Virus record (IMG/VR): IMGVR_UViG_3300030117_004310
Location: 1 to 30,044 of that record
Direction: 5' to 3' (one strand)
Length of the DNA: 30,044 nucleotides
DNA from: a virus
Under the pieces are notes generated by a model that worked only from the letters and a program-made list of their open reading frames with translations, made no database searches and was not told the DNA's origin. Positions 1-27,232 of the stretch are shown in pieces (position 1 is the first letter of the stretch; each line of letters opens with the position of its first letter). Both the position numbers and the translations under genes were made by a program.

Positions 1-331
1 CAACAGATTTATTGGGGCTCAACATACAGCCAAGCAACAACTTGCTGTCGCGTTTCTTTTCATCGCACGATGACTTGCTGATATCGTCCTTGCTGTGCTG
101 CCCATCGACATGCGCCACAAAGTGATTACGCAGTTCCTCGAAAGTCCAGTCCCAGGAGCTGGCGCTATCACTGACCAGCTCAGTGTTGAGCTTGTCGATG
201 TATTTCTGAGCCGCAATCTTACTGTCGAAAAACTCACGCTTGCCGCCATCGAGCAACCCCCGTGTGTCTACACAGTAGGCGGCACGACCTTGCTTGGCGC
301 GTGATGGATAATGTTTAATATCTAGGTTCAT
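1..331 (-). CDS. int: Tyrosine integrase, N-terminal part (runs off window)
   Basis: An open frame of 110 codons starts at ATG 331 and continues past base 1 without a stop. An AGGAGGGAG ribosome site lies just upstream. The N-terminus has the look of an integrase arm-binding domain: a short strand-rich segment followed by FFDSKIAAQKYIDKLNTEL (residues 34-52), the usual 'F.tk..A..yi..l' helix. A core-binding segment then begins (WTFEELRNHFVAHV). The catalytic domain with the Arg-His-Arg-Tyr residues is outside the window, so activity cannot be judged. Its place next to a tRNA-derived attP with arm repeats strongly supports the call. It is the second gene of a short operon driven from the promoter at 716-744. 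Confidence 0.85.
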   Translation of the reverse strand, partial: MNLDIKHYPSRAKQGRAAYCVDTRGLLDGGKREFFDSKIAAQKYIDKLNTELVSDSASSWDWTFEELRNHFVAHVDGQHSKDDISKSSCDEKKRDSKLLLGCMLSPNKSV

Positions 332-744: not shown

Positions 745-783
745 GGGATAGTCCCGTTACTCTCGTCGCTTTTTTTGACAATG

Positions 784-805
784 TTTGGCACCCGTTTGGC
801 ACCGA
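784..805 (+). repeat. Integrase arm-type sites, P side (2 tandem copies)
   Basis: Two head-to-tail 11-bp units, TTTGGCACCCG (784-794) and TTTGGCACCGA (795-805), lie on the integrase side of the tRNA-like core. The same motif recurs four times on the other side of the core (978-1024). The spacing and two-sided placement match arm sites recognised by the N-terminal domain of tyrosine integrases. The assignment is inferred from arrangement, not from a known binding site. Confidence 0.7.
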
Positions 806-862: not shown

Positions 863-892
863 TGGTGAGCGCGACAGGATTCGAACCTGACA
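863..892 (-). other. attP core: 3' end of a tRNA gene
   Basis: Read on the minus strand, 892-863 gives the T-arm and acceptor 3' strand of a tRNA: a TTCGAAT loop flanked by CAGG and CCTG, then CGCGCTCACCA ending in CCA at 863. The region 5' of it contains no matching D-arm, anticodon arm or 5' acceptor strand, so it is a fragment and not a tRNA gene. Integration here would rebuild the host tRNA 3' end. The repeats on both sides and the neighbouring integrase make this the phage attachment site. Tyrosine integrases commonly use tRNA 3' ends. Confidence 0.8.
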
Positions 893-977: not shown

Positions 978-1024
978 GTTGGCACCGGGTTGGCACCGAC
1001 GGGTGCCAAAAGTTTTGGCACCCA
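978..1024 (+). repeat. Integrase arm-type sites, P' side (4 copies)
   Basis: Four copies of the TTGGCACC motif are packed here: GTTGGCACCGG (978-988), GTTGGCACCGA (989-999), an inverted copy that is an exact reverse complement of the first P-side unit (1000-1010), and TTTGGCACCCA (1014-1024). The 11-bp register of the first three units equals one DNA turn, so bound proteins would lie on one face. The intervening stretch 893-977 holds no gene that I can support. Confidence 0.7.
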
Positions 1025-20696: not shown

Positions 20697-21764
20697 TTAT
20701 GCAGATTCATCGCAGTCGATTTGAATCACCTTGGCCTCTTCCATCCTGGTCGCGCCAAACTGAGCGCAATAGTAAACCTGGGTGGAGTAAGACTTGTCGG
20801 CTCTCTCATCGATACGAGATTCAACGTCTTTACCAACTGCTAGCTTGATGCCATCTTGCGCCCAAGCGAAACAGGTACGAATGTTGCCAGCTTTGGCAAG
20901 GCGAGTAGACACATGGAACTGGAAACCCAGGAATGTGTTAACCTCACCCTGTACAAGTGCCTTCCGTACCACTTCGGCTTTCGCCGCCAGCTGCCGCTGT
21001 TCGTGGTCTGGACTATACCTTGACCGTCGCCCTTGGCGTTACGGCCCTGCCCGTCTAGTCTCTACACCTTCCCATTTCTGGGCTTGGCTCGGTATTAGCA
21101 TTTTAAAGCCTTCACCGAATTTGAGCAGTTTTCATCTAACCGTTTCCGGCTAGATAGGCAAAGTGTTTACCGTATTGAAATCACTTGATGTTACAGAGGT
21201 GGTGTTTAACAACGCCTCAATTTGATCTGGCCCCACAGCGATATGCCGAGGGATCGATGGGTCAACTGAGCCGAGATCAAGAAGCTTCTTGGCCTCGATC
21301 AGTTTCGCTATCGTTAGATCGGCACTGCCATTAGCAATCTGATTCGCCGCAAGCATAGATGTGCTTGTGCCGCCAGCTTTACCAGTCAGCGAAGTGCCTG
21401 TTGCTGCTTCAATAATGCTGTCGTCCATTGCACGACCCATAGCCGCAGCTGCCGCACGGGCATATGTGCTTGTAGGATCGATGAGCATTTGAACTTTGTC
21501 AGCGTCATCTATTAAGTCTGCCCACTCATATGCATCCATTGTGACCATGCGCCTTGAGTGCGGGGTGTCGACAACGGGTGTATCCTGATGGCGAGATGTG
21601 CGTTTTACCGCCGCAGCCGAGCCAACTTGATCGAAGAAAGCCTTTTCTCCAACCACTGATTCCTCTTCGACGCCGCCCCGTAGGATCGACCCCATCTGCT
21701 GAGAAAGCAGCTGTACGTTAGCGCTAAACTGCTGGGAAAACGCGGTGGTGATTTGCGTAGACAT
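20697..21764 (-). CDS. Major capsid protein, interrupted by a group I intron (join 21764-21169, 20964-20697)
   Basis: Two exons of 596 and 268 bases encode a 287-residue capsid protein once the 204-base intron is removed. Exon 1 starts at ATG 21764 after AGGGAGA and carries the typical N-terminus (TTAFSQQFSANVQLLSQQMG, VDTPHSRRM, LIDPTSTYARAAAAAMGRAMD). Exon 2 continues LVQGEVNTFLGFQFHVSTRL and RIDERADKSYSTQVYYCAQ. The join falls inside codon 199 and gives SSDFNTVKALVQGEVNTFLGF, the expected family sequence. The family is the HK97-fold phage capsid type seen in podoviruses and prophages. Without splicing translation ends after 204 residues, so splicing is needed for any virion. Confidence 0.93.
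20965..21168 (-). ncRNA. Group I self-splicing intron in the major capsid gene
   Basis: All core elements are visible on the minus strand. P1 is GGTAAA (last three exon bases 21171-21169 plus 21168-21166) with TTTGCC (21162-21157), giving a U-G wobble at the 5' splice site. P2 has a GAAA loop (21155-21134). P3 is CTGCTC (21128-21123) with GGGCAG (21052-21047). The P4 strands are TTCGGT and ACCGAG, inside AATTCGGTGAAGG and AATACCGAGCCAAG. P6a is CCCA-GAAA-TGGG. P7 is GACTA (21060-21056) with TAGTC (21015-21011), inside GTGTAGAGACTAGACGG and AAGGTATAGTCC. P8 is GGCCGT with ACGGTC. P9 is ACCAC with GTGGT around a CGGC-GAAA-GCCG hairpin. The intron ends in G (20965). It holds no homing endonuclease ORF. 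Confidence 0.95.
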
Positions 21765-25037: not shown

Positions 25038-25279
25038 CAACCTCCTGGGCTTCTGGTTCGTTTGCTGCCACCCAATAGCGTCGAATATTCAACCGGCGCA
25101 TCTGTCATGACGCCCTGCGGCCCGGTTTTGATATTGGTCTTCGGTGTTGCTTTGGGTTTCTTCTTCCTGGTCTCTGCTTCCATAGACCCAGCCCTGACCA
25201 CTGGGTCTGGCCTGGCCGGTGGCGGTGGTGGGGCCGGTGGTGGCGGTGGAATACTCACCTTTGGCTGCATAAAACTCAT
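25037..25279 (-). CDS. Proline-rich small protein between terminase and portal
   Basis: The product has 80 residues: an N-terminal polyproline stretch (residues 11-21, broken by one Ala), then a Lys-rich section, then TGPQGVMTDAPVEYSTLLGG (residues 52-71). A short basic tail ends it. ATG 25279 overlaps the terminase stop as ATGA, and its own stop overlaps the next start. It looks disordered apart from the C-terminal motif, which is also found in the following protein. A docking role with portal or terminase is a guess from gene order. Confidence 0.7.
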   Translation of the reverse strand: MSFMQPKVSIPPPPPAPPPPPARPDPVVRAGSMEAETRKKKPKATPKTNIKTGPQGVMTDAPVEYSTLLGGSKRTRSPGG

Positions 25280-26556
25280 ATTGCTACTCCAAGCGGGTTA
25301 TATTTACTGTCTGCTATTGCTTGTGGTGGCCGATCAAAGGTACGCGTTTCCTTGATACCAACTGCCAAATAGCGGAAAGCATCGCTAGCATGGCTCGACC
25401 AATCATGAACCGGCGTATTCCTGAAGCTCCGCAGTCGTTCGTTGTAGGCACGATGGTAGTGTCGTAACGCTTCGAGCCCCGGCTTTGTGCGCTCTCTATC
25501 AAACCAGCAGCGTGGTATAAGCATCTGTGCAGCATGTATCCCGTCCTCGAGCGGTAGCTTGGGAACCACCCTAAAATTAATTCCTAAATCCCATGCAACT
25601 TCCCGCCGGCTCTTGCCGCTGCCAAGCTCTCTGACTTCAATATCGTGCGGCGCGTTGTGTGTGCCGTAGAGATAATCACGCTCTGAAAGCATCCTGGCGT
25701 AATGCGGCAGGCCCTCCCCCCTATTCTCATAAAAATCTATGACATGCACAGCCCGGCCAACGCTTTGGGTAAACCAAACGCTGGTCGAATCACCCACGCC
25801 TAGATCCCACCAGGTGTCTACCTTACAGGTTGGGTCATAGGGAACTGAAGATATGCGGCCTGTTTCCTGGGCCGCCTGCAGCTCTTTTCCAAAAACAGCA
25901 CCTGGCACATTAGCCACCCAGCTGCACTCAAACTCCTGCTGATACTGATCAGCCGTCATCATTGCCTGCGCAGCTGCTAATTCCTCTGCATCCAATATGC
26001 CTGTCTCACTGGCCCTATAAATCGACGTGTGCCAATCATCCTGCCCCTCAGCAGCCGTATAAAGCTCGAAGAAGGCGTTATGACCCCTAGGTGTACCAAT
26101 GAAAAGCGCCCAGCCCTTGCGGTCACTCAGAGCCGGCCTGATGACCTCTGGAAACAAACTCTCAGGATGGTCAGCCATCTCGTCCAGGACGGTGCCATCA
26201 AGATAGATGCCCCTCAGACTATCGGGATTTTCAGCGCCCAGCAGCTGTATCCTGGCACCATTGGGCAAATCACACCGAAGCTCTGTTTCATGGAATCGCA
26301 CCATAGGCACCGCCCCGGCAAACTGCTTCAGATAATCCCAGGCGACAGCCTTAGCCTGCCGGTAAGTGGGCGCAATGTACGCATACCTCGGATTAGGCTT
26401 GGGACAGAGTATTGCGTCGCGTAGCAAATGATTAATCGCCATCACAGTCTTGCCCCAGCGACGATGACAGACTACGACGCCCCAGCGCTTGGATTGTAGC
26501 TCACCGTGCAGCTGAGCTTGGAGCGGTCGTGGTGTGTAGGGGATCTCGATGTTCAT
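25276..26556 (-). CDS. terL: Terminase large subunit
   Basis: The 426-residue protein pumps and cuts DNA at the portal. The ATPase has Walker A CHRRWGKT (residues 30-37), Walker B TVLDEM (122-127) and the coupling motif GTP at 154-156. The nuclease begins with WWDLGVGDST (Asp251) and ends with VHDWSSHASDAFRYLAVG, which supplies the final acidic residue. The length is normal. ATG 26556 follows a 253-base gap with a TATAAT box about 26 bases upstream, while the ribosome site is weak. The small subunit lies upstream of the gap. Confidence 0.95.
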   Translation of the reverse strand: MNIEIPYTPRPLQAQLHGELQSKRWGVVVCHRRWGKTVMAINHLLRDAILCPKPNPRYAYIAPTYRQAKAVAWDYLKQFAGAVPMVRFHETELRCDLPNGARIQLLGAENPDSLRGIYLDGTVLDEMADHPESLFPEVIRPALSDRKGWALFIGTPRGHNAFFELYTAAEGQDDWHTSIYRASETGILDAEELAAAQAMMTADQYQQEFECSWVANVPGAVFGKELQAAQETGRISSVPYDPTCKVDTWWDLGVGDSTSVWFTQSVGRAVHVIDFYENRGEGLPHYARMLSERDYLYGTHNAPHDIEVRELGSGKSRREVAWDLGINFRVVPKLPLEDGIHAAQMLIPRCWFDRERTKPGLEALRHYHRAYNERLRSFRNTPVHDWSSHASDAFRYLAVGIKETRTFDRPPQAIADSKYNPLGVAI

Positions 26557-26581
26557 GTGAGAGACAGGCTCATGATAGGTT

Positions 26582-26587
26582 ATTATA
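26582..26587 (-). promoter_or_regulatory. Possible promoter -10 box upstream of terL
   Basis: A perfect TATAAT lies on the minus strand 25 bases before the terL start. No convincing -35 box is found at 16-18 bases, so this may be weak or activator-dependent. Confidence 0.3.
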
Positions 26588-26705
26588 CGCTATAGATTCG
26601 GCGGCCTAGTTTGGGTGTGGGTGGGGGTCGCTCTAGGCAAATCGCCCAGTAAAACAGGTACGCATCCCGTTACTCTGATCAATGTTTCTGCGCCACGCCA
26701 GGCCT

Positions 26706-26727
26706 TCGGTGCCAAGCCGGTGCCAAG
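26706..26727 (-). repeat. Tandem CTTGGCACCG pair in the terS-terL gap
   Basis: On the minus strand two 11-bp units, CTTGGCACCGG (26727-26717) and CTTGGCACCGA (26716-26706), stand head to tail. They differ from the attP pair at 978-999 only in the first base of each unit (C instead of G). The surrounding gap 26557-26809 encodes nothing that I can support. It may be a second binding site for the integrase or for another phage protein. Confidence 0.55.
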
Positions 26728-26749
26728 CTCTCGAGAACCGGCATCGATT

Positions 26750-26791
26750 TTAGAAAAACAAAAATCTTGGGTGCCTCGTGCGCGCGAGCAC
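26750..26791 (-). terminator. Possible weak terminator after terS
   Basis: On the minus strand GTGCTCG (26791-26785) can pair with CGAGGCAC (26778-26771) with one bulged base. Six bases further comes TTTTTGTTTTT. The bulge and the distance to the T-run make this uncertain. Confidence 0.35.
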
Positions 26792-26809
26792 TGCCACGCT
26801 GCCTGTCTT

Positions 26810-27232
26810 TTATATATCTCGCGACGCACCTGAAACCTCAGCATTGCCCCACGTCAAAGTAATCGTGCCACTGCTCTGCTTGTTATCCTCTGCCTTGTCT
26901 CTAATCCCGAGAGGCTGCATTTGCCTAATGTGCTTGTCCTTATGATCTGCCTCGAGACGACGACGCTGGACTTCAGCCATTGCTAGTTTTGGATCATCAG
27001 GCAATGGGGCTTCGACAATATCAATGATCTGATCGCGCATTGCTTCACACTGCAACGTCCTTGCTACGCGATACTTTGTGTAAGCATCCTCGTCTTCCTG
27101 AACCCAGCGCAGCACGGTACGCCACGATGGCAGCTCGCTATCCTCGTTGCATATCTTAGTCAGGCTTGTGCCGTTAGCTATGCGCTCACAGATAATATCC
27201 ATCTGAGCTTTTGTGACACGTTTCTTAGACAT
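26810..27232 (-). CDS. terS: Terminase small subunit, Sf6/P22-group type
   Basis: The 140-residue protein has an N-terminal helix-turn-helix-like region: ICERIANGTSLTKICNEDSE then LPSWRTVLRWVQEDED. YTKYRVARTLQCEAMRDQII follows, and AEVQRRRLEADHKDKHIRQM forms a C-terminal helix. This pattern matches the Sf6 gp1-like small terminases that recognise pac sites for headful packaging. TTGGAG lies before ATG 27232. Headful packaging would give circularly permuted genomes, in line with attP sitting inside the sequence. The last 20 residues are polar and probably contact TerL. Confidence 0.88.
   Translation of the reverse strand: MSKKRVTKAQMDIICERIANGTSLTKICNEDSELPSWRTVLRWVQEDEDAYTKYRVARTLQCEAMRDQIIDIVEAPLPDDPKLAMAEVQRRRLEADHKDKHIRQMQPLGIRDKAEDNKQSSGTITLTWGNAEVSGASRDI

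Follow-up and report, generated by a model that had tools for sequence, protein, structure and literature searches.

Why should a pair of sequences resembling the integrase arm sites of an attachment site lie between terS and terL? The question arises in the window, the whole 30,044-nucleotide stretch analyzed here (IMG/VR record IMGVR_UViG_3300030117_004310, positions 1-30,044), a virus record classed as linear that is possibly a fragment. It carries a T7-like virion gene set together with an Sf6-like TerS and a TerL that is 57% identical to the TerLs of HTVC010P-type pelagiphages. Its integrase part is 49.5% identical to the integrase of the relative L004 across 105 aa; a cognate integrase with an arm-binding domain, catalytic residues, and PF00589 is found in the relatives, the window itself holding 110 aa only. 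The major capsid gene is apparently split (window 20697-21764) into ORFs at 21150-21764 and 20697-20972, in place of the single ORF of ~860 nt in isolates; a frameshift, an assembly error, and a programmed event are all candidate explanations. The features considered below are as follows.

2-331, minus strand: integrase N terminus with the arm-binding domain (first 110 aa, after which the gene leaves the window; R32 codon at 236-238)
753-765, minus strand: core-like half site, CGAGAGTAACGGG, immediately upstream of the promoter of the int operon
784-804, plus strand: attP P' arm pair on the int side, TTTGGCACCCGTTTGGCACCG, at +83/+94 from the core centre
872-892, plus strand: attP core, CGACAGG-ATTCGAA-CCTGACA, in a 3' tRNA fragment (T-arm to CCA)
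978-998, plus strand: attP P arm pair, GTTGGCACCGGGTTGGCACCG
1001-1023: further attP P arm units in inverted orientation (1001-1010 on the minus strand, 1014-1023 on the plus strand)
25276-26556, minus strand: terL (PF03237), downstream of the gap site
26557-26809, minus strand: terS-terL intergenic gap that houses the element, flanked by terS and terL
26653-26677, minus strand: core-type inverted repeat of the gap site, (CAGAGT)AACGGG-ATGCGTA-CCTGTT, with its spacer at 26659-26665
26707-26727, minus strand: the two arm-type units of the gap site, CTTGGCACCG GCTTGGCACCG, which repeat with period 11 and stand in P' orientation to the core-type repeat
26810-27232, minus strand: terS (PF20901 Sf6_terminase, an Sf6-like small terminase), upstream of the gap site

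The gap pair at 26707-26727 reads CGGTGCCAAGCCGGTGCCAAG on the plus strand and CTTGGCACCGGCTTGGCACCG on the minus (terL-sense) strand. A preliminary description of this DNA had noted that it matches the attP pair at 20 of 22 positions in the same register, and direct comparison with 978-999 (GTTGGCACCGGGTTGGCACCGA) confirms two differences in 22 positions and a period of 11 in both. A search of the whole record for TTGGCACCGNNTTGGCACCG with up to three mismatches returned three places only (979-998, 785-804, and 26707-26726), and the reversed control pattern gave no match in the 30,044 bases; the exact 10-mer CTTGGCACCG occurs twice in the record, both times in the gap. The separation of 25.7 kb from attP given in that description does not hold on a circular map, where attP lies upstream of int and ~8-10 kb 5' of terL, a distance read from relatives that carry both on one contig.

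In the relatives, attP was read by script plus eye, as was the alignment. They have the same T-arm core, and where their attP is readable it lies upstream of int and brackets a tRNA 3' fragment; ARAGORN found no whole tRNA at the attP core. The place of the window's 784-804 pair is that of the P' arms in a comparison of 19 attP regions. Within the core-like half site at 753-765, 11 bp (AGAGTAACGGG) are identical to the left half of the gap core, and equivalents are present in relatives.

The resemblance to attP extends beyond the arms. In the window, a core-type inverted repeat lies ~41 nt downstream (in the terL sense) of the pair. Apart from the isolates, the relatives are all metagenome contigs. 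We fetched 80 contigs whose TerL is 80-91% identical, and many have a period-11 pair ~170 nt before the terL start codon, with differing sequence; units include TTGGCACA, TTGGCACT, TTGGCATG, TTGTGATG, AGTGACC, TTGTGACC, and TTGTGACT. The pair is present in 50 of 78 unique gaps, and 42 of these 50 also have CRGG-N7-CCYG at a fixed distance, its left half ending 59-63 nt from where the pair begins; a 43rd match, at 25 nt in L037, is probably fortuitous. Across the larger set of 102 unique gaps, a period-11 pair of variable sequence occupies the same position in 62, and the classes are 56 composite (pair plus CRGG-N7-CCYG), 13 dif-like, 8 with a pair and no strict core, and 25 with neither. The window has a single composite, and none turned up in 447 kb of control loci or in any of the 13 dif-type gaps. 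Exceptions to the strict core include L047, L054, L076, and L148, which, as read from the sequences, keep the 7-bp spacing with other half sites; L020, which has the pair and lacks a clear core repeat; and HTVC028P, whose gap core matches on the left half only. In most gaps the element lies 106-114 nt before the terL start (129 nt in L173). Separately, a small ORF that starts ~142 nt before terL is inserted between the element and terL in L008, L011, L012, L016, and L021. The preliminary description, which took the element to be an arm pair, was thus right about the pair and missed the core-type half, the geometry, and the dif-like replacement described below.

Other stretches of the gap are also conserved. 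Directly after terS, at window 26774-26797, TGGCAGTGCTCGCGCGCACGAGGC is kept in both pair- and dif-bearing relatives and is a candidate packaging signal or terminator. A C-rich block with a TATAAT-like box at ~26580-26632, before terL, is kept even in lytic isolates and may be a late promoter or a packaging cut region.

Wherever attP is readable, the phage's own attP arms carry the same unit variant as its gap. This co-variation check had been proposed in the preliminary description, and in no readable relative were different attP arms combined with an unchanged gap unit. Units that look unrelated to one another are shared between gap and attP within single phages: TAGGCGCC in L134, GCGACC in L127 and L138, TTGTCGT in L053, CTTCTC in L173, TTGTAAG in L148, and TTCACTA in the cultured HTVC028P. 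Among 25 genomes, 105 sites in attP match the phage's own gap unit, compared with a permutation mean of 28 (sd 7.7, maximum 68; 0 of 100,000 permutations), in a test that treats phages as independent and has no relatedness or phylogeny in its model. When each of the 12 unit types is represented once, the count is 47 against 8.8 expected (maximum 36; again 0 of 100,000). Matching over nine letters makes these counts too low for L127 and L173; by eye, their arms agree at 5-6 bases. For the L071/L152/L153 group, where the integrases have a different N terminus, no attachment arms were found. The resemblance of gap pair and attP pair is not a chance match, in line with the earlier judgment that chance is unlikely.

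The core halves follow attP as well, being similar to the attP core in the tRNA T-arm. The gap has a CAGG half only where the phage's own attP core has CAGG (6 of 8 versus 0 of 12; Fisher p=0.0007, phages being treated as independent here too). A divergent attP core is matched in its own gap by GTTGTAGG in L148, and further gap/attP core matches seen by eye are GGACCCGGG in L127, GACCC(C)AACGGG in L053, and AGAG(T/C)AGTTGA in HTVC028P. Read on the other strand, the gap presents core then arms, the same orientation as attP core then P'. The arm centres of the window gap lie ~50 and 61 bp from the core centre, compared with 70-72/81-84 or 82-83/93-94 bp in attP, so that the arm-core spacing is shorter than that of attP by about two or three helical turns. 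The 7-bp gap spacer differs from the attP overlap in all 20 phages compared, and it changes between close relatives (ATACACA in L042, ATACGTA in L043, ATACATA in L105). Such a spacer would fit a site whose sole recombination partner is its own copy, and also a site without any recombination.

Which protein reads the pair? Close relatives with different units point to the N-terminal domain of the integrase. Between L110 and L111, the attP arms and the gap pair both switch from TTGTGATGC to AGTGACC; their integrases have 17 differences, all at residues 6-121 and 15 of them within residues 1-89, and their TerS proteins differ at a few terminal residues. Similarly, the gaps of L123 and L062 are almost identical, with GGC changed to GTG in both gap units and in the attP arms; TerS is nearly identical, and there are 34 differences between the integrases, some of them, R32Q included, clustered at residues 31-37. 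Across 22 phages, integrase residue 32 is R with GGC units (9 of 9) and Q with G(T/C)GA units (13 of 13). On an integrase tree built without the N-terminal domain, unit type and residue 32 need four changes each, and they change together in all three independent pairs on well-supported branches, a sample too small for a sign test to reach significance. In the structure predicted for the L109 integrase (mean pLDDT, 81; pTM, 0.52), residues 5-52 form a three-stranded sheet and a helix, the fold of arm-binding domains, with residue 32 opening the third strand; the best Foldseek matches of this model are the Tn1549 and lambda integrases. Since specificity tracks the N-terminal arm domain, and since no ORF that fits lies between attP and int in L004, where ~190 bp separate the attP core from int, the integrase is the probable reader of the gap pair. 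We consider its binding to the gap site highly probable. Of the options raised in the preliminary description, an integrase-bound site is thus strongly supported by the joint variation of gap, attP, and integrase N-terminal domain.

Relatives that appear to lack an integrase have something else in the gap. A 28-bp dif-like site (11+6+11 bp, with XerC and XerD half sites) occupies the same gap in 18 loci, with about ten different 6-bp centres, and in 13 of the unique gaps; it is seen in L001, L017-L019, L050-L052, L056, L064, and L066-L068 (~170-225 nt upstream of terL), as well as in L016 and L021. The window gap site does not have this 11+6+11-bp structure of XerC and XerD halves. A search for PF00589 found none in the dif-type records searched, including two of 34 and 36 kb, the records being possible fragments, and none in four lytic isolates; the domain was present in the tested pair-bearing records of 34-37 kb and in HTVC028P. 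Only in the isolates, therefore, is the absence of an integrase firm; in the two long dif-type contigs it is probable. None of the lytic isolates HTVC010P, HTVC024P, Greip, and HTVC100P has a tyrosine integrase, the pair, or a dif-like site, and HTVC010P and Greip are described as exclusively lytic (PMC8163748). The dif-type phages possibly use host XerCD. Near the terS end, L064 and L066-L068 (~390 nt upstream of terL) and L050 have period-11 repeats of their own (TTTGGTACATGTTTGGTACA). For hosts or prophages, a single scan of genome contigs with the integrase alignment gave distant matches only, in Sorangium and other lineages.

What the integrase does at the gap admits several readings. The main rival to the reading favoured below is that it acts as a transcription factor that represses or activates the terL-late operon, tying that operon to integrase level. 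Integrase autoregulation has precedent: IntS of KplE1 represses its own gene via an att site overlapping the promoter (PMC2951348). With the core-like half site at the int promoter (753-765), beside the P' pair, both operons carry Int-type sites, and the integrase probably autoregulates its own promoter at attP. Most gaps, moreover, keep the element at a fixed 106-114 nt before terL. We nonetheless consider a regulatory role less likely than not, because the gap is built like a recombination half-site (a 7-bp spaced inverted repeat with arms in P' orientation) and the element does not overlap the conserved TATAAT-like box. Further, the element at the int promoter differs from that of the gap, with the pair in opposite orientation and at variable spacing, and host XerCD, whose site stands there in relatives without an integrase, has no evident part in late-gene control. 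The complete arm-plus-core architecture would also fit a second integration site, an alternative attP directed at some other target on a chromosome or a phage, and the dif-like site of integrase-less gaps could correspondingly be an attP for host dif. A spacer that varies among near relatives (L042, L043, L105) appears to follow no fixed host target, however, and never equals the tRNA overlap, which makes this reading improbable. The earlier suggestion of a second integration or excision element came near to the reading that we favour, although the gap is probably not a second integration site.

The remaining candidates name a reader other than the integrase. A small protein such as an excisionase, encoded next to int, might bind the attP arms and the gap pair much as P2-type Cox proteins bind repeats at both att and promoter, and the window does have a 112-aa ORF between attP and int. 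ORFs at that place in other phages look unrelated, L004 has none that fits, and specificity tracks an integrase residue, so a Cox-box-like role is quite improbable. The location between terS and terL had suggested a packaging signal, a TerS-binding repeat belonging to pac or a cos subsite. In the L110/L111 and L123/L062 comparisons, the units switch completely while TerS stays nearly identical, and the pair is absent from integrase-less and lytic relatives, so that a TerS-read site is disfavoured and we regard it as highly improbable. As for a host-protein site, TTGGCACCGGCTTGGCA is a fair match to the sigma-54 -24/-12 consensus, a resemblance confined to the window. One motif should persist if a host factor bound it, whereas the relatives keep the position and swap the unit to GTGACC, GTGATG, GCGACC, CTTCTC, or TTCACTA; the shared host-protein site proposed earlier is accordingly rejected as hardly credible. 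A sigma-54 promoter was dropped as a candidate, TGGCAC-N5-TTGC not being conserved in relatives.

We favour a different reading, in which the tyrosine integrase of the phage has a second att-like site, with one arm, in the gap and uses it for self-recombination; on present comparisons, we would place its chances near the midpoint. Comparison shows a composite site of fixed geometry there, varying with the attP arms and the integrase arm domain and accompanying the integrase; what we infer beyond this is binding, strand exchange, terminal redundancy across the gap, and circularisation or resolution. The tandem arm pair would be bound by the N-terminal domain of the integrase, and the core repeat with its 7-bp overlap by the core-binding and catalytic domains; that the site is competent for recombination seems moderately probable. 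The Sf6-like TerS probably fills heads by a headful mechanism, starting near terS and proceeding through the gap, in which case the earliest packaged molecules would carry the gap site at both ends. Recombination of the two copies by the integrase would then circularise incoming linear DNA before integration at attP. Alternatively, the integrase might resolve multimers at gap sites, as Cre-lox does for P1. Such a role in circularisation or multimer resolution is, at best, an even call. Integrase-less relatives might put a dif-like gap site and host XerCD to the same use, and the dif-like sites may instead be attP sites for host dif. Support for self-recombination comes from the non-attP spacers, the varied dif-like centres, the Sf6-type TerS, and the Skadi-1 repeats. 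By P1-like logic, a cyclisation site would be expected shortly after terS in the direction of packaging, which is where the gap lies.

Headful packaging with the gap in the terminal redundancy is suggested by the Sf6-type TerS and by the terminal repeats around terL reported for Skadi-1 (PMC10504331). In the isolate records checked, end repeats are absent except for the 125 bp of Skadi-1, which are possibly an assembly overlap. Clustering of contig ends near terL was dropped as an indicator of genome ends because strain polymorphism confounds it. A 33,956-bp contig (L256 at its start, L285 at its end) has both ends inside terL with ~180 bp of overlap; the overlap contains mismatches and is polymorphic, not identical, which indicates strain polymorphism and not a terminal repeat.

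The gap site combines features of several known systems, and literature searches found no description of the element. In lambda, the arm units and the core, an inverted repeat whose overlap is 7 bp, are separated by about 50-60 bp. The gap resembles a lambda-type attL (core plus P' arm pair) in its tandem arm units of the kind read by an N-terminal arm domain, and the predicted integrase fold is like those of lambda Int and Tn1549 Int; unlike attL, the site lies between terS and terL and not at an integration locus, has one arm, and has an overlap that differs from attP. In P1, loxP is a Cre recombinase site near the packaging region that circularises terminally redundant DNA. The gap site likewise adjoins packaging genes, has a spacer free to diverge from a host target, and, if the proposed role is right, would circularise terminally redundant DNA; its recombinase, however, would be the integrase itself, its form is an arm-plus-core att, and circularisation here is conjectural. 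The dif/Xer phages are paralleled by the 28-bp dif-like site in the same gap of integrase-less relatives, whereas the window site is not dif-like and accompanies a phage-encoded integrase. KplE1 IntS at attL (PMC2951348) similarly has integrase sites overlapping or adjoining a promoter, although it regulates int itself at an att site, and the gap is a separate locus before the late operon. Late gene order is similar in the HTVC010P-type phages (proposed Ubiqueviridae), in which HTVC028P has an integrase and the element with its own unit and core, unlike the lytic HTVC010P, HTVC024P, Greip, and HTVC100P.

We tentatively suggest, at somewhat less than even confidence, that temperate phages of this marine family keep a lox-like second site beside the terminase genes, worked by their own integrase or, in relatives lacking one, by host XerCD, so that a single enzyme closes the incoming genome into a circle (or resolves multimers) there and integrates it at attP. 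If so, one integrase would have separate tasks at two places in the genome, and there would be a testable answer to how DNA with headful-type ends is closed in temperate podoviruses. The element is present in a cultured isolate, HTVC028P. Even if the site proves regulatory, the integrase would directly control the late operon.
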